From Methanobrevibacter olleyae (GTDB lineage: Archaea; Methanobacteriota; Methanobacteria; Methanobacteriales; Methanobacteriaceae), in the NCBI GenBank assembly GCA_015063035.1, contig SUTG01000006.1, positions 1-64,000 on the forward strand: a DNA stretch of 64,000 nt. The letters run 5' to 3'. Made by a program: the position numbers and the translations under genes. Shown here piece after piece: positions 5,027-55,388 of this stretch (position 1 is the stretch's first letter; every line of letters begins with the position of its first letter). Under the pieces are notes generated by a model, which worked only from the letters and a program-made list of their open reading frames with translations, was not told the DNA's origin and made no database searches.

Positions 5027-5722
5027 ATGTCAAATTTTAATGATGAACAAAAGGAATTAGATTCTGAATTCACTAAATTCTTTGATGAATTTGCATTTGA
5101 TGAAGTTCCAAACAGCAATGGTATTGATGACAGGACAAGGTATATTGTAATTTTGGCAAGTCTTCTTGGATGTCAGGGAATAGATGAATTCAAGGCAATT
5201 CTCCCTATTGCATTAGAATCATTGTCTCCAGTTGAAGTTAAAGAAATAGTGTACCAATCAACTGCTTATTTGGGAATAGGGAGGGTTTATCCTTTCATTG
5301 ATGCTACTAATGAAGTCATGAAAGAGGAGGGGATTGAACTTCCACTGCCAAGCCAATCTACAACCAATCCTGAAAATAGATTGGAAAGAGGCTCTAATGC
5401 TCAAGTGGAATTGTTTGGTGAGCAAATGAAGGATTTCTGGAAAGCAAGTGATATAAATCGTTTTTTAGCAGCCAATTGCTTTGGAGATTATTATACTAGA
5501 GATGGGATTGATTATAAGGCTCGCGAATTGATCACATTCTGTTATCTTGCATCTCTTGGAGGATGTGAAGACCAACTTGCTGCACATACCTTAGCTAATT
5601 TTATGCAAGGAAACGATAAAAAATTTTTAATCGATGTCGTATCTCAAATGGTGCCTTATATCGGTTATCCGAGGTCTTTAAATGCTATAGCTGTAATTAA
5701 CAAGGTTGCGGAACAAGTTTAG
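5027..5722 (+). CDS. Carboxymuconolactone decarboxylase family protein, two-domain
   Basis: The 231-residue protein contains two CMD/AhpD-like helical repeats, about residues 25-105 (with RTRYIVILASLLGCQG) and 135-225 (with KARELITFCYLASLGGCEDQ). CMD domains form helical oligomers; some are decarboxylases and others AhpD-type disulfide reductases. The classical AhpD CxxC motif is absent, since only single Cys occur in each repeat, so a peroxidase-coupled role is not supported. A cupin gene follows after 40 bp and a hydrolase after that, all on the same strand. The three often travel together in anaerobes and may act on the same small molecule. A GAAAGGTG ribosome site precedes the ATG. Confidence 0.85.
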   Translation: MSNFNDEQKELDSEFTKFFDEFAFDEVPNSNGIDDRTRYIVILASLLGCQGIDEFKAILPIALESLSPVEVKEIVYQSTAYLGIGRVYPFIDATNEVMKEEGIELPLPSQSTTNPENRLERGSNAQVELFGEQMKDFWKASDINRFLAANCFGDYYTRDGIDYKARELITFCYLASLGGCEDQLAAHTLANFMQGNDKKFLIDVVSQMVPYIGYPRSLNAIAVINKVAEQV

Positions 5723-5762
5723 CTAAGCATTTAATCAATTATTTTATCTAGGAGGTTTTTAT

Positions 5763-6197
5763 TTGAAATATTTAGATAAAGAGGAATTCAAAAATGCAAA
5801 CACTTTTGGAATGGGAGTTCCAAATGATGCATTTGCACAGTATTTTATTGGAAATTCTTACCTAAATCCATTGAATGAATTTGGGGAATCTGCAGTATTT
5901 GTTGCAAATGTGACATTTGAGCCTGGATGCAGAAATAATTGGCATATTCACAAGGCAAGTAGCGGCGGTGGTCAAATATTGATTTGTACCGCAGGTGAAG
6001 GATGGTATCAGGAAGAAGGTAAAGATCCGGTAAGCCTTTTACCTGGTATTGTAATCACTATTCAGCCAAACGTAAAGCATTGGCATGGCGCTAAGGCAGA
6101 TTCCTGGTTTGCACATGTAGCTGTTGAAGTTCCAGGTGAAGATGCAAGCAATGAATGGTTAGAAGAAGTGGATGATGATTATTACAGCAAATTATAA
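5763..6197 (+). CDS. Cupin-domain protein with TTG start
   Basis: The 144-residue protein is a single conserved beta-barrel cupin. The first metal motif is visible as NNWHIHKASSGGGQ with HxH, followed by the later His of NVKHWHGAK and HVAVEV. This is the pattern of small cupins often linked to CMD proteins. A likely role is metal-dependent chemistry on, or binding of, a small organic molecule. It starts with TTG: GGAGG at 5751-5755 lies seven bases upstream and no ATG fits. It shares direction and probably a transcript with the CMD gene upstream. Confidence 0.88.
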   Translation: MKYLDKEEFKNANTFGMGVPNDAFAQYFIGNSYLNPLNEFGESAVFVANVTFEPGCRNNWHIHKASSGGGQILICTAGEGWYQEEGKDPVSLLPGIVITIQPNVKHWHGAKADSWFAHVAVEVPGEDASNEWLEEVDDDYYSKL

Positions 6198-45330: not shown

Positions 45331-46375
45331 TCATTTTATTTCCTTAACGTTTTCCAATAGCTTATCGAAGTCTGATCGATAGTTTTTATCTTGCATTGGT
45401 CTGAACTTATCATATTCATTACTTGCTATTTCCTTGGCCTCTTTCATGCTTATCTTTCCCTTGTTTTCCAGGATTTCATATTCGTTGAAATCCAGAAATC
45501 CGTCCAGTCGCTCGGACCAGTCATTCATATACATTAGTTTCTGTCTTTTTGCCTGCAGTTCAGCATAGTCCAAGTACATGTTTACCAAACTGTTCAATTC
45601 GTCCAGTTCCTCTTTTTCAAGATAGTTTTTAGCAATTTCAGTATCGCTTTTTAGTATTTTTCCCTCAGGGCTGTTTTTCCATGTTTGCAGTCCCATATTA
45701 TTCTTTTCATGGTCTGCACGGGCGCTGATCATTTCCGCTGCTGTCTATCCTGTTATTGCATAGTGGAGCTTGTTTTGAACCTTTGCATAAAATTCCTTTG
45801 CAATGTATGAATTGGAATCATAGTCATAGCTTGTAGCAAAGATGTCTGTCACCTTTTGATATGCTCTTCGTTCGCTTGTTCGGATTTCCTTGATCTCTTC
45901 CAGCAGTTCATCAAAGTAATCCTTGCCAAGGACTCCTCCGTTTTCAAGCACTTCCTTATTCAGCACATATCCTTTTATCATATATTCCTTTAAAATGTTT
46001 GTAGCCCATTTTCTAAAACTGTGTTGCCTCTTTGCTGTTTATTCTATAGCCTATTGATATCATTGCGTCGAGATTATACCATATTTGGGGTCTGCCTCTC
46101 TTTTTAGAATTTTGCAAATTTTTCTTGCTAAATTCTAATTCGTCTTGAAATAAGTCTTTGGAGCTTATGATAACTTCTTTTTCTATTAACTCTCCTTTTT
46201 GCACTATATTTCTAAAATGAGCTGATATGTTCTGATTTGTAGTTCCAAAAATCTCTGCGACAATGTTTCTACTTGCCCATATAGTATCCTCGCCTATTAT
46301 GAAATCTCCTTCAACGGTTGTTTCCTGCCCGTAATATGATAATGTTTTAATAAGATCAAATTTTGTCATAATCAC
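45331..46375 (-). pseudogene. RhuM-family protein gene, disrupted
   Basis: Three reading frames read together as one RhuM-type protein (a phage/virulence family). Part 1 (46375-46013) has the TTNQNISAHFRNI and WYNLDAMISIGYRINSKEATQF segments. Part 2 continues RKWATNILKEYMIKGYVL only after removing one T from TTTT near 46018. Part 3 (from 45745) follows an in-frame TAG at 45745-45747, after which TAAEMISARAD continues in frame to about 45331. One base insertion and one stop therefore break the gene, so it is probably inactive. It lies next to a tyrosine recombinase, consistent with a decayed accessory element. Confidence 0.85.
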
Positions 46376-46626: not shown

Positions 46627-47709
46627 ATGATGTCTGATGAATTATTGAAAAGATTTTATTTGAATAGAAACATTAAGGACAGTACAGTCAGATCATATAG
46701 ATCTGCGATTCGAAAGTATGAACTCTTTCATGATATGGCTATGGAATCCCTTATGGATGAGGCAATCGATGAGGAAGAGAAAGGAATTCCAGTAAAGAGC
46801 AGAAAGATTAAGAATAGATTGTTGGATTTCAGGAGTTTTTTATTGGATTCTGATTTGTCAATCAGCACTGTGAGGACATATTTTTCCAGAATCAAGACCT
46901 TCTACAGGCATTTCGAGATTGAGCTGCCCTATTTGAATGACATTAGCTTTGATGGGGTGTATCTTTCTTCTTATGATGACTTGCCTACAAGGGATGATAT
47001 CAGAAGGGCATATGACATTTCCTCATTGGATTTTATTGCTGTGATTCTTTTCATCTCAAGCAGCGGATGCGCCAAGGCAGAGACATTGTCCTTGACTGTT
47101 AGCGATTTCATAAAGGCGACTGAGGATTATCATGATGGAGGTTCCATAGATTATGTCTTGGAATATTTGGAAAATCGTAGAGATCTTGTTCCCACATTCT
47201 ACCTGAAGAGGATTAAGACCAATAAGTTCTATCACACATTCTGCTCTCCTGAAGCCAGTTTCCATATTGTGAAGTATCTTTTAACTAGGGATGATCTGTC
47301 CTTGGAGGACAAGCTATTTGATTTTTCCGACAGTTCCTTGATCTATAATTTCAAGAAGGTCAATGACAAGTTGGGATTGGGTTTTGTTGGCAGGTATAGG
47401 CGATTCAGGGCACATGCCTTAAGGAAGTACCATGCAAGCAACATAGGGCTGAGCGCAGATGCCATTGATGCATTGCAGGGAAGGGCAAAGACCAAGGTCC
47501 ACGAAGCCTACATCAAGACCAATCCCAGGAGGTTAAAGGAGATTTACATTCGAGCAATGCATAATGTTATGGTATTTGATGAATGGATAGGGGAGCATGA
47601 GGAAAAGCATATTGATGGAAAAGAGGGCACTTGCACGTTCATTGAGAACCAAACGATAAATATAACGATCAACTTCACCCTGGACGGCATGGAATATGAG
47701 TTGGAATAA
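46627..47709 (+). CDS. Tyrosine recombinase (XerD/integrase-like) with altered active site
   Basis: The 360-residue protein has an N-terminal SAM-like core-binding domain (residues about 15-105, with NIKDSTVRSYRSAIRKY and STVRTYFSRIKTFYRHF) and a catalytic domain to about 310. HALRKYH gives His263 and Arg266, and AYIKT gives the nucleophile Tyr295. Where the first catalytic Arg is expected (GLRxxE) the sequence reads GCAKAE, with Ala149 and Lys150; where His or Trp of LGH is expected there is Arg286 (LQGRAK). A C-terminal tail of about 50 residues follows. It lies 115 bp from a 19-bp inverted repeat that flanks the next gene's promoter. No ribosome site is obvious; the message may be leaderless. 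Confidence 0.85.
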   Translation: MMSDELLKRFYLNRNIKDSTVRSYRSAIRKYELFHDMAMESLMDEAIDEEEKGIPVKSRKIKNRLLDFRSFLLDSDLSISTVRTYFSRIKTFYRHFEIELPYLNDISFDGVYLSSYDDLPTRDDIRRAYDISSLDFIAVILFISSSGCAKAETLSLTVSDFIKATEDYHDGGSIDYVLEYLENRRDLVPTFYLKRIKTNKFYHTFCSPEASFHIVKYLLTRDDLSLEDKLFDFSDSSLIYNFKKVNDKLGLGFVGRYRRFRAHALRKYHASNIGLSADAIDALQGRAKTKVHEAYIKTNPRRLKEIYIRAMHNVMVFDEWIGEHEEKHIDGKEGTCTFIENQTINITINFTLDGMEYELE

Positions 47710-47823
47710 TTCATGAAATATCACATGTTTCACTTTCATCTTTACAGGTTACATGATGAAAACAAGGAGTCTCCTCTCTTCCCGCATGAAATTTTATAGG
47801 TTACATGCAAAAATTCGCATATA

Positions 47824-47842
47824 TCCATGTGAAACACATAAA
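47824..47842. repeat. Left arm of 19-bp inverted repeat
   Basis: TCCATGTGAAACACATAAA is the exact reverse complement of 48212-48230. It contains a spacer CATGT and one perfect 12-bp arm GAAACACATAAA (47831-47842). The other half (47814-47825) is degenerate. This looks like a tyrosine-recombinase core site. Confidence 0.85.
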
Positions 47843-48211
47843 CTAGTTTCATATAAGTCAAACAATCTATTTTTTAACAAAAACTGCTAAGAATTACTTA
47901 ATTTTAGATTTCCGACAGCATAATTTTTTATATTAGCAAAAAAATCTTTTTTTACTATTTATAAACGAAAAAAAAAAGAAAACGGATGTTCTCATTATTT
48001 TTTGATCAAAAACACTTAACATAGTTAATAAGATTAAGTTTATATGTTTATATGAGTAATATATATTAATGTAAGACATATTTTATGAATATTCAATCTA
48101 ACTTGACAAAGGGAGTATTTATCAAGATTATTCTAATATGTTTTAAAAAAATTAAGTTTTTCATTCAATTTTCACTTGATTTTTATAGGACAATCTAGGT
48201 TTTTTAAATGT
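47843..48211. promoter_or_regulatory. Putative invertible promoter segment of 369 bp
   Basis: The AT-rich segment between the inverted repeats has no ORF of note. On the plus strand it contains TTTATATG twice (48039-48046 and 48048-48055), giving a start near 48070, aimed at the adhesin gene at 48340. On the minus strand CGTTTATAAATAG (about 47955-47967) is a second TATA-like element aimed the other way. Inversion would swap which promoter faces the adhesin. This reading is inferred from the architecture and is not shown by the sequence alone. Confidence 0.5.
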
Positions 48212-48240
48212 TTTATGTGTTTCACATGGAAACACATAAA
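48212..48240. repeat. Right inverted-repeat site, complete 12-5-12 palindrome
   Basis: The site has arms TTTATGTGTTTC (48212-48223) and GAAACACATAAA (48229-48240), perfect complements, around spacer ACATG. The first 19 bases are the exact reverse complement of 47824-47842. Two inverted binding arms around a short asymmetric spacer is the standard build of a tyrosine-recombinase crossover site. Confidence 0.85.
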
Positions 48241-48339
48241 GATTTCATGCCTTACAAAAAATCTTAAAAATTGAATATTTTTCTCCTTTAAAACTGAAAA
48301 AGGAGACTTTAAAGAAATAAACTTTGGAGGAAATAAAAT

Positions 48340-51300
48340 ATGAATTATAAAATCGTGACCGTATTTTTAGTTCTTCTTTGTTGTTTCATGGGTGCTGCAA
48401 GCGCAGCGGATGATGTCTCAATAGATGCAGTCGATGCATCTGTTGATGATGCAGTTGCTGTAGATGCAGTCTCCGAGGACATAGGCGATAGTGTAACAGA
48501 TGACCCTATTCTTTCCGAAGATACAACAACTGAAGAAATAAATGAGGCAACAATTGAAAAAGAAAATAAGGACGTTGAACAGACTAGAGGCGCTCCTGTA
48601 AATGCTGCTGACTGGGATGATTTGGAAGATGCATGTGAGTCATCTGGTGCAAAGGATATTACTTTGACAGGCACTAATTATAATCCTACTAGCCAGATAA
48701 ATTTCACTAATAGTGCTACTATTATTGGTACTGAAAATAGTTACATCACTGGTACTTTTAATGGAGTTCCATTTTTAAATGAGAATCCTGATTTAACAAT
48801 TACTTTCAGAAATGTTAAGTTTAAAGATATGAATGTTGTTAACCTTTTGGAGTTATCAGGAACTAATATTCTAGAAAATTGTAGTTTTTACAACATTACT
48901 GCGGCTACTGGCCATAATTCTGTAGTTTATAATACATTAGGTACTATGAGCCTAATTAGCTGTAATATTACTAACTCTTCTGCAGGTTATGGTGTTGTAA
49001 GCAATTATAATGCTGGAACCGTTACTGGTGTTATAATGTATGTTGATGACTGTAAATTCATAAACAACTCTGCTAGTGTAGAGCCTGGAGTAATTAACAA
49101 CTGTGGAATATTATACGTAAACAATTCCGAATTTATCAATAACTCTGCAGGATGGTGGGCAGGAGCAATTCACACTCACAGCAATGCACAAACTTATATT
49201 GATAATTCTAACTTCACTGGAAATGTAGCAGGTTGGAATGGTGGTGCATTGTATACCTATAGTAAATTAGTGGTCTGCAATTCCATATTTAAGGAAAACA
49301 AATGCCGCACAAGTGCAGGGGGTGGAGCAATAGGATGTTCCAACTGGGGATCTTCTTACAATATAACCATTTGTAACTGCACTTTTGAAGAAAATGAAAA
49401 CTTATGTGGACATACCAACGAAACTCCTTCAACTGGAACTGGTGGTGCAATTTCTGCAATGAACAATGGAATATTAAAAGTATGCAATTCTACTTTCATT
49501 CACAATGTAGCTAAAACTGGTCAAGCAATAGCAGCTTACAGTCAAGGGTACATCAGCCCAGAAGGAAACATTACAGAAGGAATACCTAAAGTGATCGTTT
49601 GCAACAACACATTCATCAATCATACTTTAACTACTTCCGATACTGTGAAACTCACTGGAAATTACACATTTTCATTCAATAACTTCACAAACTGCTATCA
49701 GACCAATTTGGGAACAAACAATACATTTAACAGTCCAGTAACTTCTAATAATGGAATTTTTGAAGAAGAACTTTTAGATGCAGTAAATAATATTAAATCA
49801 TCATCAAAAAATATTCTGGGGGATAAATTGCCTCATGATGTTATTTATGTTGATCCTTCCTCATCAAATAACTATGCTGATGTAGATGGTCAAAGTTGGG
49901 AACAAGCATATGGTCAAGAAAATGGATTTAAAAGAGCTTATAAGTATATAAATGATAATGGAACTATTTATCTTGCAGATGGAGAGTATAATTTAAATAT
50001 TGAAAATTTAAATAAAAGTGTCATATTTATAAGTCAAAGTAAAAATGCTATTTTTACTTCACTTCGAGATTCTGTCACTGCATTCTATGATACTCATCCT
50101 ATTTTAACATTCATTAACTTCACAATTAATGCAGCAGATTTAACCATGAATTCTAATTTTATTAACTGTACTTTTGTCAATTCTAATATAAATATTGCAA
50201 AGGGCATTGCGGAAATTGAGCATTTGGATGAAAAACCTTTTGGCGTTACATATAATATGACTTTTGACAATTGTGAATTTAAAGATGTTAATATTGCAAA
50301 TTCTTTATTTACAGTATATACATACGGTAAAGTTGTTTTGACTAATTGTACTTTTGATAATATCGTTGCTGATTCCATTATTGGAAGAAGCGGTGACTTC
50401 ATTGATCAAGACGGAATTTACTTGTATGATTGTAGTTTCACTAACTGCAACATTAAGGGTGTTGTGGACATTCCTGGAAATATTGAGATTTTAGATTTCT
50501 GCGCTATTGAAAACTGTGATTATGACTTTGATGCTACAACTACTATCGATAAAGTAGGTGATTATGAGCACAATTACCTAAACGCTACTAAGCTTAAGGT
50601 TGTTGCTGTTGACTCTGTTGTTGACATCAGCTCCAGCGAAAAGGGCACTGTTGTAGTAACCTTGACTGACAAGGACTCCAATGCTATTGCTGGTGCAACT
50701 TTCAAGTACACTGTAAATGGCGGAGATGAGCAAACTGCTGTAACTGGAGATGATGGTAAATACGCAATCACCGGATTGACTGGTGAAGTCACCGTTGCAG
50801 TCAACTATGAAGGAAACGAATCATACAATGCTATCGGCGATAGCAAGTTCTTCAACTTCACTGACGAGCCTGCACCTTCCAATGACACCAACGGTTCAAA
50901 CAGCACTCCTGTTCCTCCTGCTAAGGTCGCAACCAAGCTCACCGCTCCTAAGGTGACTGCTACTTACAATGTTGCTAAAAAATTGGTCATTACCCTTATG
51001 GCAAACGGCAAGGCTTTGGCTAACAAGAAAGTGACTGTTAAAGTCGGCACAATCAGCAAAACACTCACAACCAACAGCAAAGGTCAGGTAAGCCTCAATG
51101 TCGCTACCCTTGTTCCTAAGACATACACTGCAACAGTCAAGTTTGCAGGAGACAGCGCTTACACCGCTTCAAGCGTAAAGCCTAAGGTTGTAGTCAACAA
51201 GGCAAAGGTCAAGATCGCTGCAAAAGCAAAGACCTTTAAGGTTAAAGTCAAAACCAAAAAGTATACTGTTACCCTTAAGAACAATAAAGGCAAAGTAATG

Positions 51301-51489
51301 AAAAAGGTCAAGCTTACCTTGAAAGTAGGCAAAAAAACCTACAAAGCTACCACAAACAGCAAAGGTAAAGCAACCTTTAAAATTACCAAATTAACCAAAA
51401 GAGGTAAATATACTGCTACTGTCAAGTTTGCAGGAAACAAATACTACAAAGCATTAAGCAAAAAAGTAAAAATAACCGTTAAAAAATAA
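48340..51489 (+). CDS. Adhesin-like secreted protein with beta-helix and Ig-like C-terminus
   Basis: The 1049-residue protein starts with a signal peptide (YKIVTVFLVLLCCFMGAASA). An acidic Asp/Glu/Val stretch to about 80 follows, then repeated right-handed beta-helix coils from about 90 to 740 (repeats such as NCTFEENENLCGH, NNTFINHTLT, DNSNFTGNVAGWNGGALYTY). From about 750 come two or three Ig-like/Big_3-type modules, for example VVTLTDKDSNAIAGATFKY, and a Lys-rich end with KVGKKTYKATTNSKGKATFK. This is the design of Methanobrevibacter adhesin-like proteins, held at the pseudomurein wall. The gene lies downstream of the putative invertible segment and a leader hairpin (TCTCCTTT/AAAGGAGA). 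GGAGG precedes the ATG. Confidence 0.85.
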   Translation: MNYKIVTVFLVLLCCFMGAASAADDVSIDAVDASVDDAVAVDAVSEDIGDSVTDDPILSEDTTTEEINEATIEKENKDVEQTRGAPVNAADWDDLEDACESSGAKDITLTGTNYNPTSQINFTNSATIIGTENSYITGTFNGVPFLNENPDLTITFRNVKFKDMNVVNLLELSGTNILENCSFYNITAATGHNSVVYNTLGTMSLISCNITNSSAGYGVVSNYNAGTVTGVIMYVDDCKFINNSASVEPGVINNCGILYVNNSEFINNSAGWWAGAIHTHSNAQTYIDNSNFTGNVAGWNGGALYTYSKLVVCNSIFKENKCRTSAGGGAIGCSNWGSSYNITICNCTFEENENLCGHTNETPSTGTGGAISAMNNGILKVCNSTFIHNVAKTGQAIAAYSQGYISPEGNITEGIPKVIVCNNTFINHTLTTSDTVKLTGNYTFSFNNFTNCYQTNLGTNNTFNSPVTSNNGIFEEELLDAVNNIKSSSKNILGDKLPHDVIYVDPSSSNNYADVDGQSWEQAYGQENGFKRAYKYINDNGTIYLADGEYNLNIENLNKSVIFISQSKNAIFTSLRDSVTAFYDTHPILTFINFTINAADLTMNSNFINCTFVNSNINIAKGIAEIEHLDEKPFGVTYNMTFDNCEFKDVNIANSLFTVYTYGKVVLTNCTFDNIVADSIIGRSGDFIDQDGIYLYDCSFTNCNIKGVVDIPGNIEILDFCAIENCDYDFDATTTIDKVGDYEHNYLNATKLKVVAVDSVVDISSSEKGTVVVTLTDKDSNAIAGATFKYTVNGGDEQTAVTGDDGKYAITGLTGEVTVAVNYEGNESYNAIGDSKFFNFTDEPAPSNDTNGSNSTPVPPAKVATKLTAPKVTATYNVAKKLVITLMANGKALANKKVTVKVGTISKTLTTNSKGQVSLNVATLVPKTYTATVKFAGDSAYTASSVKPKVVVNKAKVKIAAKAKTFKVKVKTKKYTVTLKNNKGKVMKKVKLTLKVGKKTYKATTNSKGKATFKITKLTKRGKYTATVKFAGNKYYKALSKKVKITVKK

Positions 51490-51821: not shown

Positions 51822-54023
51822 ATGCAAAAGATTAACAAGTGTTTATTGCTGTCTTCATTGGCATTAATCATATTATTACTGCTCTCTTCTTCTGTTTCAG
51901 CAGAAGACATGAGTGATTATAATGTTTCTTCAGTTGACGATAGTATAGGTTATCCTATTCTTTCTCAATTAAGTGATGATGCTGTTGAGGATGGCTGTGT
52001 TTTGTGTTCTGATTCTTCTAATTTGCTTTCTGAAGAAATGGGATCAAGTGAAAGCTCATTAAATGAGCCAACTGAAAAATGTGAAAGTTCATTAAATGAT
52101 CCAACTGAAAAATCAAGGGAATCCATTAATGATTCATCATGTTCAGATGTTTTGAAGGATTCCATTGACAGCAATGTTTATATTGTTGATTCTGATAATT
52201 TCACATCCTATTTTGTTGATGGCCAATTAAATGAAGGTTTCAATGATTCCATCATAGTCTTTAATGGCGAGTTTGCCGATAAGGGAATCATAGACATCAA
52301 ATCCTCTAATGTGACTCTAATCGGCAACAATTCACTGATGAGAAACACTGTATTCTGCTTGGAATCTAATAATGTCATGCTTTCCGGTCTTAACTTTGTT
52401 CTGGACCAGGAGTTCGCTGACAATGATTTTGCAGGGATGTTGGTGCTTGGAGACAATTGCACAATCTACAACTGCACAATGGATTATGTGGTTCCTGAAG
52501 CCACCAGTGGGTTCTGTGTTTATGCAGAAGGCAACAAGATAGAGAACTTCACCTTGGCAAACAGCACATTTAACTTTATAGGCAATAACCTGCATGGAGG
52601 ATGGGATTATGGCATATTCATTGATGGTGTCGACAATGCTGTAGTCTATGGTAATAATTTAAACTGTTCATTGCCTTTGCGTTCCGTAAATTGGCAGGCT
52701 GAGATCTTCGGTGGTGTGAGCATGGATGCTGTAGGTGCCTTTGTGGCACAGAACTCCAATAACCTGACACTGTCCAACAATAAGATTTCCACATATGTCA
52801 ACGGAGGAGGCAACAGTTACCCTACTTTGGATACCGTGATATTGTATGGCTGCAACAATGCCACTATCGAGAAGAACCGCATTCACTGCGAGGACTTCGA
52901 CAGCAAGGACGGCAAGGACAACTACCTTCAGGGAATTGATGTGTATTTTGGCAATGACATTACAATATTAGGCAACCAGATTGATATGATTACCACTGGA
53001 GGACGTGCAGGAATGGGAACAGCTTATCCTATTCAGGTCAACGGTCCTTCATATAATGTGAAGATTGCTTACAACAATCTAACCACATTCAATTTCGGTC
53101 CGAATATAGGTATATATTCCCAGAATTACTATGGTGCTACAAAGATTGACATCATCAGCAATTTCATCAATGTGACCGGTCTTGCAAGCACTCACTATTG
53201 GGCGCTTGTCGCAGGAATTGAAGTGCAGGACTCTGATGACCTGATCTTGAACAACACAATCATTGTAAACAATATAGGCAGTTATGCAGACAATAACAAT
53301 ATTTACGGCATCAGCTATTCCCAAAATACCAATGGCAATCACACCTATAACATTCAGTACAATAATGTGACAACCAACGGTCGCTATGCGGTTTCCCTCT
53401 CAGGTACCAGTTCATTGGTAGTCAATTCAATTATTGCAAATAATGTGTTGAATACCAATAAGTCCAGTGGAAATCGTGCTGTTCGTGTTGGTAAGGGAAA
53501 TAACAACACTATCCGTAACAATACTGATGGTGTGTTCAGGAACACCATGAGTGATGATGAGTTGCCTGACTGGCTAAGGAATCACACAAGCGTTGTCCCT
53601 AGCATTTTTGTTCCTAGGTATTATCGTGAGGGTTCCAATGGTACTGGGATGACTGACAATCTAGGCAACGGAACAGCTCCTTGGAACACTAATGGCAGTT
53701 CCGGAGGAATAAATCATGGCAACGGCAATCACGGAAGTGGAGTTTCCGGAAATGGGACCAACCCAAATAGTGACAGTGCTTTAGGTTCAAATAAGGACAC
53801 TGCCCCTGGTGTTGGCGGAGATGCCACTCCTAGCATTAGCGCTGCAAGTGCCGGTGAAAGCGGAAGTTCTGCAGCAGACCCTAACGCTTATGAGATAAAC
53901 GAACAGAATAATCTAGCTTCAAAGTCTGTCAATTATCTTCAGCTAGGGCTTATTTGTGTTGTTGCTTTGTTGTTGTTATGCATTGGTTACAAGCGCCAAA
54001 AAGACAAAGAGGAAGAAGAATAA
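51822..54023 (+). CDS. Membrane-anchored beta-helix surface protein
   Basis: The 733-residue protein has a signal peptide (residues about 8-31, LLLSSLALIILLLLSSSVSA), an acidic Ser-rich region with a repeated SSLNEPTEK-like unit near residues 80-100, and NosD/pectate-lyase-like beta-helix coils from about 120 to 570 (for example NLTLSNNKISTYVNG, NNATIEKNRIHCEDF, NLTTFNFGPNIGIYS). A Gly/Ser/Asn-rich linker (about 605-700) leads to a C-terminal helix LGLICVVALLLLCIGY and basic-acidic tail KRQKDKEEEE, so it stays in the membrane. Unlike its neighbour, it has no Lys-rich Ig-like end. An ExbB-like gene follows after 382 bp. GGGA precedes the start. Confidence 0.82.
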   Translation: MQKINKCLLLSSLALIILLLLSSSVSAEDMSDYNVSSVDDSIGYPILSQLSDDAVEDGCVLCSDSSNLLSEEMGSSESSLNEPTEKCESSLNDPTEKSRESINDSSCSDVLKDSIDSNVYIVDSDNFTSYFVDGQLNEGFNDSIIVFNGEFADKGIIDIKSSNVTLIGNNSLMRNTVFCLESNNVMLSGLNFVLDQEFADNDFAGMLVLGDNCTIYNCTMDYVVPEATSGFCVYAEGNKIENFTLANSTFNFIGNNLHGGWDYGIFIDGVDNAVVYGNNLNCSLPLRSVNWQAEIFGGVSMDAVGAFVAQNSNNLTLSNNKISTYVNGGGNSYPTLDTVILYGCNNATIEKNRIHCEDFDSKDGKDNYLQGIDVYFGNDITILGNQIDMITTGGRAGMGTAYPIQVNGPSYNVKIAYNNLTTFNFGPNIGIYSQNYYGATKIDIISNFINVTGLASTHYWALVAGIEVQDSDDLILNNTIIVNNIGSYADNNNIYGISYSQNTNGNHTYNIQYNNVTTNGRYAVSLSGTSSLVVNSIIANNVLNTNKSSGNRAVRVGKGNNNTIRNNTDGVFRNTMSDDELPDWLRNHTSVVPSIFVPRYYREGSNGTGMTDNLGNGTAPWNTNGSSGGINHGNGNHGSGVSGNGTNPNSDSALGSNKDTAPGVGGDATPSISAASAGESGSSAADPNAYEINEQNNLASKSVNYLQLGLICVVALLLLCIGYKRQKDKEEEE

Positions 54024-54405: not shown

Positions 54406-55038
54406 ATGGCTGGTAGCAACATTTTGACCTCAACATTGGATCTTGTGAGCCAAAGCCTTCAGATTCCTGTGATAATATTCTTATTAATCTTTGCAATAGG
54501 AGCAATCATACTCCTCGGAGGATTAATCAGAGAATATAGGCACAGGAAGACCGTGTCCAATGCTGAGATGAAGAACTTAATCAACAGCATTTCAAATGCG
54601 AAGAGTCAGGACGAAATATTGAATATTATTGAAAGTTCAGATATTCCGAACTCAATGAAGAACGACCTGAGGGAAATAACAGACACCAATCTCGATTTGG
54701 AATCCAGAACAGCATTAGCTAAAAAATTAGTTAACAGCAGAGAAAAGAAATTGGAGAAGAGACTGTCATACACTGACATCATAACCCGTATAGGACCTAC
54801 ACTTGGTCTTATGGGCACATTGATTCCAATGGGTCCGGGGCTTGCAGCCCTTGGAACAGGAGACATAGTCACACTATCAAATGCAATCATAGTCGCATTC
54901 GACACAACCGTTGTGGGAATAGGCTCAGGTGCACTCGCTTATGTAATCAGTAAAATCAGACGAAGATGGTACAGCGAGTACATAGCAAACATAGACGTAT
55001 TGACCGACGTGGTCCTTACAAGAATACGGAAGCTCTAG
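54406..55038 (+). CDS. MotA/TolQ/ExbB proton-channel family protein
   Basis: The 210-residue protein has an N-terminal membrane helix (residues about 18-40), a charged helical cytoplasmic region, and two further helices with the family core RIGPTLGLMGTLIPMGPGLAAL and VAFDTTVVGIGSGALAYVIS. ExbB/MotA-type subunits form pentameric ion channels that turn the proton-motive force into movement. A DUF2149 (ExbD-like) gene follows after 11 bp. The usual bacterial target, an outer-membrane transporter or flagellum, does not exist here. The surface protein upstream is a candidate client. GGAGGG precedes the ATG. Confidence 0.9.
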   Translation: MAGSNILTSTLDLVSQSLQIPVIIFLLIFAIGAIILLGGLIREYRHRKTVSNAEMKNLINSISNAKSQDEILNIIESSDIPNSMKNDLREITDTNLDLESRTALAKKLVNSREKKLEKRLSYTDIITRIGPTLGLMGTLIPMGPGLAALGTGDIVTLSNAIIVAFDTTVVGIGSGALAYVISKIRRRWYSEYIANIDVLTDVVLTRIRKL

Positions 55039-55049
55039 GGTGATCGTTT

Positions 55050-55388
55050 ATGGTAAAGCTTAATCGAAAGACTGCCTTTGAGGAGGATGAGGAAGACCCA
55101 ATGACTGGTGTTGCAAATCTTGTGGATGCAATGCTTGTTATTGCAGTGGGTTTGCTTGTCTTTCTAGTGATTTCATGGAATATGCAGGCAATCGTCTTCA
55201 ACGATGATGTTACACCTGAGCAGAGGCAGGATGCAATCAATGCCATGAAGCAGGTGACTGAGATAGATCAGGGTCAGCAGTTGAATGAGACTCCTGATGT
55301 AAGCTCATCATCTGGAGAAGGTTACAGTGAGCTTGGTAAGGTCTACAAGGATCCCAAAACGGGCAAACTCATCATGATAGAAAACTAA
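55050..55388 (+). CDS. DUF2149 protein, ExbD/TolR-like
   Basis: The 112-residue protein has a short acidic cytoplasmic start, then NLVDAMLVIAVGLLVFLVISW, one membrane helix with an Asp near its start, which is the position of the proton-carrying Asp of ExbD. A soluble outside tail of about 60 residues follows, ending KDPKTGKLIMI. DUF2149 proteins are usually found with MotA/ExbB-like genes in methanogens. It starts 11 bp after that gene with AGGGTGAT. The pair likely forms an ion-driven complex at the membrane. Confidence 0.88.
   Translation: MVKLNRKTAFEEDEEDPMTGVANLVDAMLVIAVGLLVFLVISWNMQAIVFNDDVTPEQRQDAINAMKQVTEIDQGQQLNETPDVSSSSGEGYSELGKVYKDPKTGKLIMIEN

Follow-up and report, generated by a model that had tools for sequence, protein, structure and literature searches.

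A predicted promoter-inversion switch upstream of an adhesin-like gene in a gut Methanobrevibacter

Introduction

Can a methanogenic archaeon of the gut switch a surface protein on and off by flipping a promoter, as many bacteria do? The question is raised by a locus in a 64,000-nucleotide stretch of DNA (hereafter the window; positions 1 to 64,000 of contig SUTG01000006.1, assembly GCA_015063035.1, Methanobrevibacter olleyae), which belongs to a 2.28-Mb draft genome of 103 contigs. A first-pass annotation, made from the sequence alone, proposed that a tyrosine recombinase, a pair of 19-bp inverted repeats and an adhesin-like gene together form an invertible promoter switch, with deletion of the segment as an alternative outcome. 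Here we verified the anatomy of the locus, compared it with related loci and analysed the recombinase, and we conclude with high confidence that this is a chromosomal promoter-inversion (phase-variation) switch, although inversion within a clonal population, the role of this recombinase in the flipping and the effect of orientation on adhesin expression are inferred.

Results and discussion

Anatomy of the locus

All coordinates of the first-pass annotation were confirmed. The recombinase gene (46627-47709, plus strand) encodes 360 amino acids and is followed by a perfect 19-bp inverted repeat (47824-47842 and 48212-48230) enclosing 369 bp (47843-48211; 20% GC). The right site (48212-48240, plus strand) is a full 12-5-12 palindrome (TTTATGTGTTTC ACATG GAAACACATAAA), while the left site (47819-47842, minus strand) retains the inner arm GAAACACATAAA (47831-47842) and the spacer in reverse (CATGT, 47826-47830) next to a degenerate outer arm. 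The adhesin-like gene (48340-51489, plus strand; 1049 amino acids) is preceded by a GGAGG ribosome-binding site (48326-48330, plus strand). Its product displays a signal peptide (by inspection only), N/T-rich repeats and Ig-like C-terminal repeats, with CarboxypepD_reg and Big_3_5 matches above cutoff, and is related to many C-terminal domains in the genome. NCBIfam gave no name for the adhesins.

Repeats of this length do not arise by chance at this composition. The 19-bp repeat is the longest inverted repeat with 100-1000 bp spacing in the window, whereas the maximum was 16 bp both in 1000 dinucleotide shuffles of the intergenic region and in 60 shuffles of the whole window. The 19-mer occurs only at these two places in the draft genome, the two further hits having three mismatches (against one such hit for the reversed-pattern control), and the recombinase has no other full-length copy.

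The 12-bp arm GAAACACATAAA is indeed also directly repeated (47831-47842 and 48229-48240), as the first-pass annotation noted in suggesting deletion as an alternative outcome; loss of the segment would give an irreversible OFF state. However, the 5-bp spacers match at 0 of 5 positions in direct alignment (CATGT / ACATG), against 5 of 5 in inverted alignment, and no locus with a deleted segment was seen among the nine compared below. Deletion is therefore disfavoured, and we regard it as very unlikely.

Conservation of the cassette

Close relatives of the recombinase (69-82% identity) were found in rumen and goat-gut MAGs. Wherever the downstream DNA is readable, it holds an intergenic region of about 400-660 bp followed by an adhesin-like gene. 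Besides the window, this arrangement was found in eight further rumen Methanobrevibacter/Methanosphaera loci (labelled here L036, L037, L038, L039, L040, L041, L094 and L083), whose upstream neighbours differ. These recombinases form a clade with 100/100 support, nested in a family whose other members sit in hsdS arrays (Methylase_S confirmed for eight), in proviruses and in other contexts. Close family members lie inside hsdS arrays with inverted repeats of up to 30 bp, the other classic inversion system. Interestingly, an independent and more distant recombinase (L063/L081, 54% identity) also sits upstream of a 17-bp inverted repeat (spacing 261 bp) with a TATA-type promoter between the repeats, before an adhesin carrying beta-helix and Big_3_5 matches, although the orientation of L063 relative to the other loci could not be called. 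Beta-helix matches were significant only in the relatives L081 and L083.

The many proviral integrases in the family, together with the different neighbours of the cassette in different species, might suggest that recombinase and adhesin form a mobile unit, with the repeats as its attachment sites. This reading is very unlikely, since the two sites are inverted and both lie between the recombinase and the adhesin rather than around the unit, a location seen in 9 of 9 readable loci, and since the spacers match in inverted but not in direct alignment. The close relatives found in the viral collection look like proviral integrases, not adhesin switches.

Orientation of the segment in related loci

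The segment was found in both orientations between unchanged flanks. In the cleanest pair, L036 and L037, a 448-bp stretch is 96.2% identical but inverted, while the flanking recombinase (76.9% DNA identity) and adhesin start (86.9%) are colinear; L036 against L094 shows the same thing at 88%. Scoring of every pair of the nine loci in both directions against shuffles gave 36 pairwise calls (one pair scored '?') that fall without contradiction into two classes, i.e. the window, L037, L094, L038, L040, L039 and L083 against L036 and L041. Alignment of left and right sites placed the exchange inside the shared core TTTGGTAAAG, outer arms staying with the flanks and inner arms moving with the segment, the signature of conservative site-specific recombination. 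On the recombinase tree, the window is sister to L036 (98/81) and L039 to L041 (98/92), each pair in opposite orientation, so at least two inversions are needed.

These inversions are between species and hence prove inversion over evolutionary time, not switching within a strain; only one orientation is seen in the present assembly. A hint of live switching nevertheless came from one related genome (G018). There, a recombinase contig (C95) runs through its left site ACAGTTCTTTATGAAAGAACTGT and ends 27 bp later, in sequence that matches the right-hand end of the L083 segment in reverse, that is, in the OFF order, while the adhesin contig (C49; 8591 bp) ends on the last base of the same site and a second recombinase contig (C133) ends inside its own site. 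Assemblies break this way when both orientations coexist, but draft contigs can end for other reasons and this observation is suggestive only.

Alternatively, the repeats could be operator sites for a repressor, or for the recombinase acting as a regulator, with a segment that does not flip today and with rare, old rearrangements explaining the orientations in relatives. The palindromic right site, the single orientation in this assembly and the missing first catalytic arginine of the recombinase (see below) would fit this view. However, two independent inversions between close relatives, with 96% identity in the flipped segment, breakpoints inside the site core and contig ends at the sites in G018 are not expected of operators, and we consider this explanation unlikely.

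A conserved promoter block inside the segment

When all nine segments were turned the same way, the most conserved part was a block of about 100 bp. It comprises a BRE/TATA-type element (ATTAAGTTTATATG, 48033-48046, plus strand) with an A-rich BRE position, corresponding to a TTTATATA-type box that is nearly invariant in the nine loci, a second TATA-like block (AATATATATTAATGTAAGA, 48058-48076, plus strand), and a dyad (CTTGACAA-n8-TTTATCAAG, 48102-48126, plus strand; TTGATAA/TTATCAA in the nine loci) just downstream of the predicted start site, which might be an operator or a leader hairpin. The block, recognized by sequence only, points at the adhesin in the window and the six like-oriented loci (presumed ON) and away from it in L036 and L041 (presumed OFF). 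The first-pass annotation had also noted a TATA-like box pointing away from the adhesin, but no conserved promoter in that direction was seen, although weak TATA-like sequence is unavoidable at 20% GC. An A-rich tract (47967-47982, T-rich on the minus strand), recurring in most aligned segments, becomes a T-run in front of the adhesin in the OFF state and might stop readthrough. Interestingly, a second adhesin in the same genome (contig C69, 70% identical) has a promoter region resembling the L039/L041/L083 segments in ON orientation, one degenerate site and no recombinase, like a locked-on relic.

In the model that we favour, the recombinase pairs the two inverted 12-5-12-type sites and exchanges strands inside the asymmetric spacer, so that it can only invert the 369 bp between them. 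In the orientation seen here, transcription would run through the right site into the adhesin-like gene, while after inversion the promoter would fire back towards the 3' end of the recombinase gene, leaving the adhesin silent.

A divergent tyrosine-recombinase-type enzyme

Library matches of the recombinase were weak, with N-terminal phage-integrase SAM matches and a XerA-type profile match (4e-7) below the curated cutoff. Nevertheless, a profile built here met XerA, IntI4 and SSV integrase, and the AF2 model (mean pLDDT 79.8) best matched XerA, IntI4, Cre, lambda and SSV integrases (E down to 1.5e-6), albeit with low whole-chain TM-scores (about 0.3), the domains being flexible. Lys197, His263 and Arg266 (the latter two forming the HxxR motif) are invariant in 62 relatives, and Tyr295 is present in 61 of 62, the other being a gap. 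Surprisingly, the canonical Arg I of the GxRxxE motif is absent: this position is A149 in the window and Ala/Gly/Ser/Val/Asp in 62 of 62 relatives, while Arg195, two residues before the lysine, is invariant in all 62. We hence consider the protein a homologous, variant branch of the tyrosine recombinase superfamily rather than a canonical member, and its activity is inferred from its sites and family, not from an intact textbook active site. It is possible, though tentative, that a clade of such enzymes widespread in Methanobacteriales has replaced Arg I with Arg195, and that one branch has been turned from proviral and hsdS recombinases into dedicated promoter switches for cell-surface adhesins, a cellular phase-variation system in Archaea with its own recombinase chemistry. 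That Arg195 does the work of Arg I is a guess.

Comparison with known inversion systems

The principle is known from bacteria and from an archaeal virus. The fimS/FimB-FimE switch of Escherichia coli type 1 fimbriae (314-bp segment; PMC9993118) likewise has a small promoter-bearing segment, short inverted repeats and adjacent tyrosine-recombinase-type genes upstream, and controls a surface adhesin, as is inferred here, but the present locus has an archaeal TATA/BRE promoter, a single recombinase of an archaeal family without canonical Arg I, and a single large adhesin instead of a fimbrial operon; no sequence kinship is claimed. Invertible promoters (invertons) of gut bacteria (Jiang 2019, cited in PMC8987985; PMC11892184) also lie in intergenic regions upstream of surface-structure genes, whereas the locus described here is archaeal. 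In the haloarchaeal virus phiCh1 (PMC4284463), an adjacent recombinase inverts DNA to vary a surface-binding protein, but this system is viral and swaps the 3' ends of two tail-fibre genes, whereas here a promoter would be flipped and the coding sequence is untouched. In the hsdS-inverting systems of type I restriction (e.g. PMC4948785, PMC7096588), coding halves are exchanged; homologous recombinases (51-59% identity) sit inside hsdS arrays with inverted repeats in related methanogens, but the adhesin-switch recombinases form their own clade. We found no prior description of a chromosomal promoter switch in a cellular archaeon in the literature accessible to us, which is not proof of priority; a later long-read survey may have included archaeal isolates. 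A 2018 read-based survey found no inversions in six archaeal datasets (PMC5903667), and a 2025 review lists archaea as territory still to be mapped (PMC11868660).

Implications for methanogen biology

Gut and rumen methanogens carry dozens to over a hundred adhesin-like proteins (105 in M. ruminantium M1; PMC2812497), which are candidate vaccine targets for cutting livestock methane, and how their expression is controlled has been named as an open question (PMC11532034). A flip-switch of the kind inferred here would carry programmed promoter inversion into cellular Archaea. It would also mean that individual cells randomly show or hide such a protein, which affects binding to hydrogen-producing partners, virus attack and vaccine design.

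A RhuM-family gene (window 45331-46375, minus strand) lying just upstream of the recombinase gene (46627-47709) appears to be broken into three adjacent reading frames, and a related gene sits in the same place in L038, one of the related loci carrying the cassette. Between the recombinase and the left site (47724-47807), the sequence AGGTTACATG occurs twice (47746 and 47798), together with a site-like CATGTTTCAC (47724), these being possible accessory binding sites. The adhesin is followed by a second large surface-type protein (51822-54023) with a weak beta-helix match and a C-terminal membrane anchor, and then, by inspection, by an ExbB/MotA-like protein and a small membrane protein (54406-55388).

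A 70%-identical paralogue of the adhesin was detected in the same genome (locus L146, contig C69 of genome G000, about 5400-5913 on the reverse strand), with a promoter resembling the invertible segments of relatives in ON orientation, but with one degenerate site and no recombinase. In the related loci L036 and L037, the inverted segment is 96% identical although the adjacent recombinase genes are only 77% identical in DNA, hinting that the segment or the adhesin end was exchanged between species. The adhesin gene downstream of the ON-oriented segment in L037 (L037:7655-9657) is split into two reading frames (104 and 543 amino acids in length), representing either a frameshift or an assembly error.

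The entire recombinase family (window 46627-47709 and 62 relatives) lacks the canonical first catalytic arginine, with an invariant arginine found two residues before the catalytic lysine. Relatives of the recombinase also lie within type I restriction hsdS arrays (loci L012, with the recombinase at 1495-2526, L085, L056, L062, L013, L014, L080 and L091), some with 28-30-bp inverted repeats between hsdS pieces, suggesting hsdS shuffling in Methanobacteriaceae.
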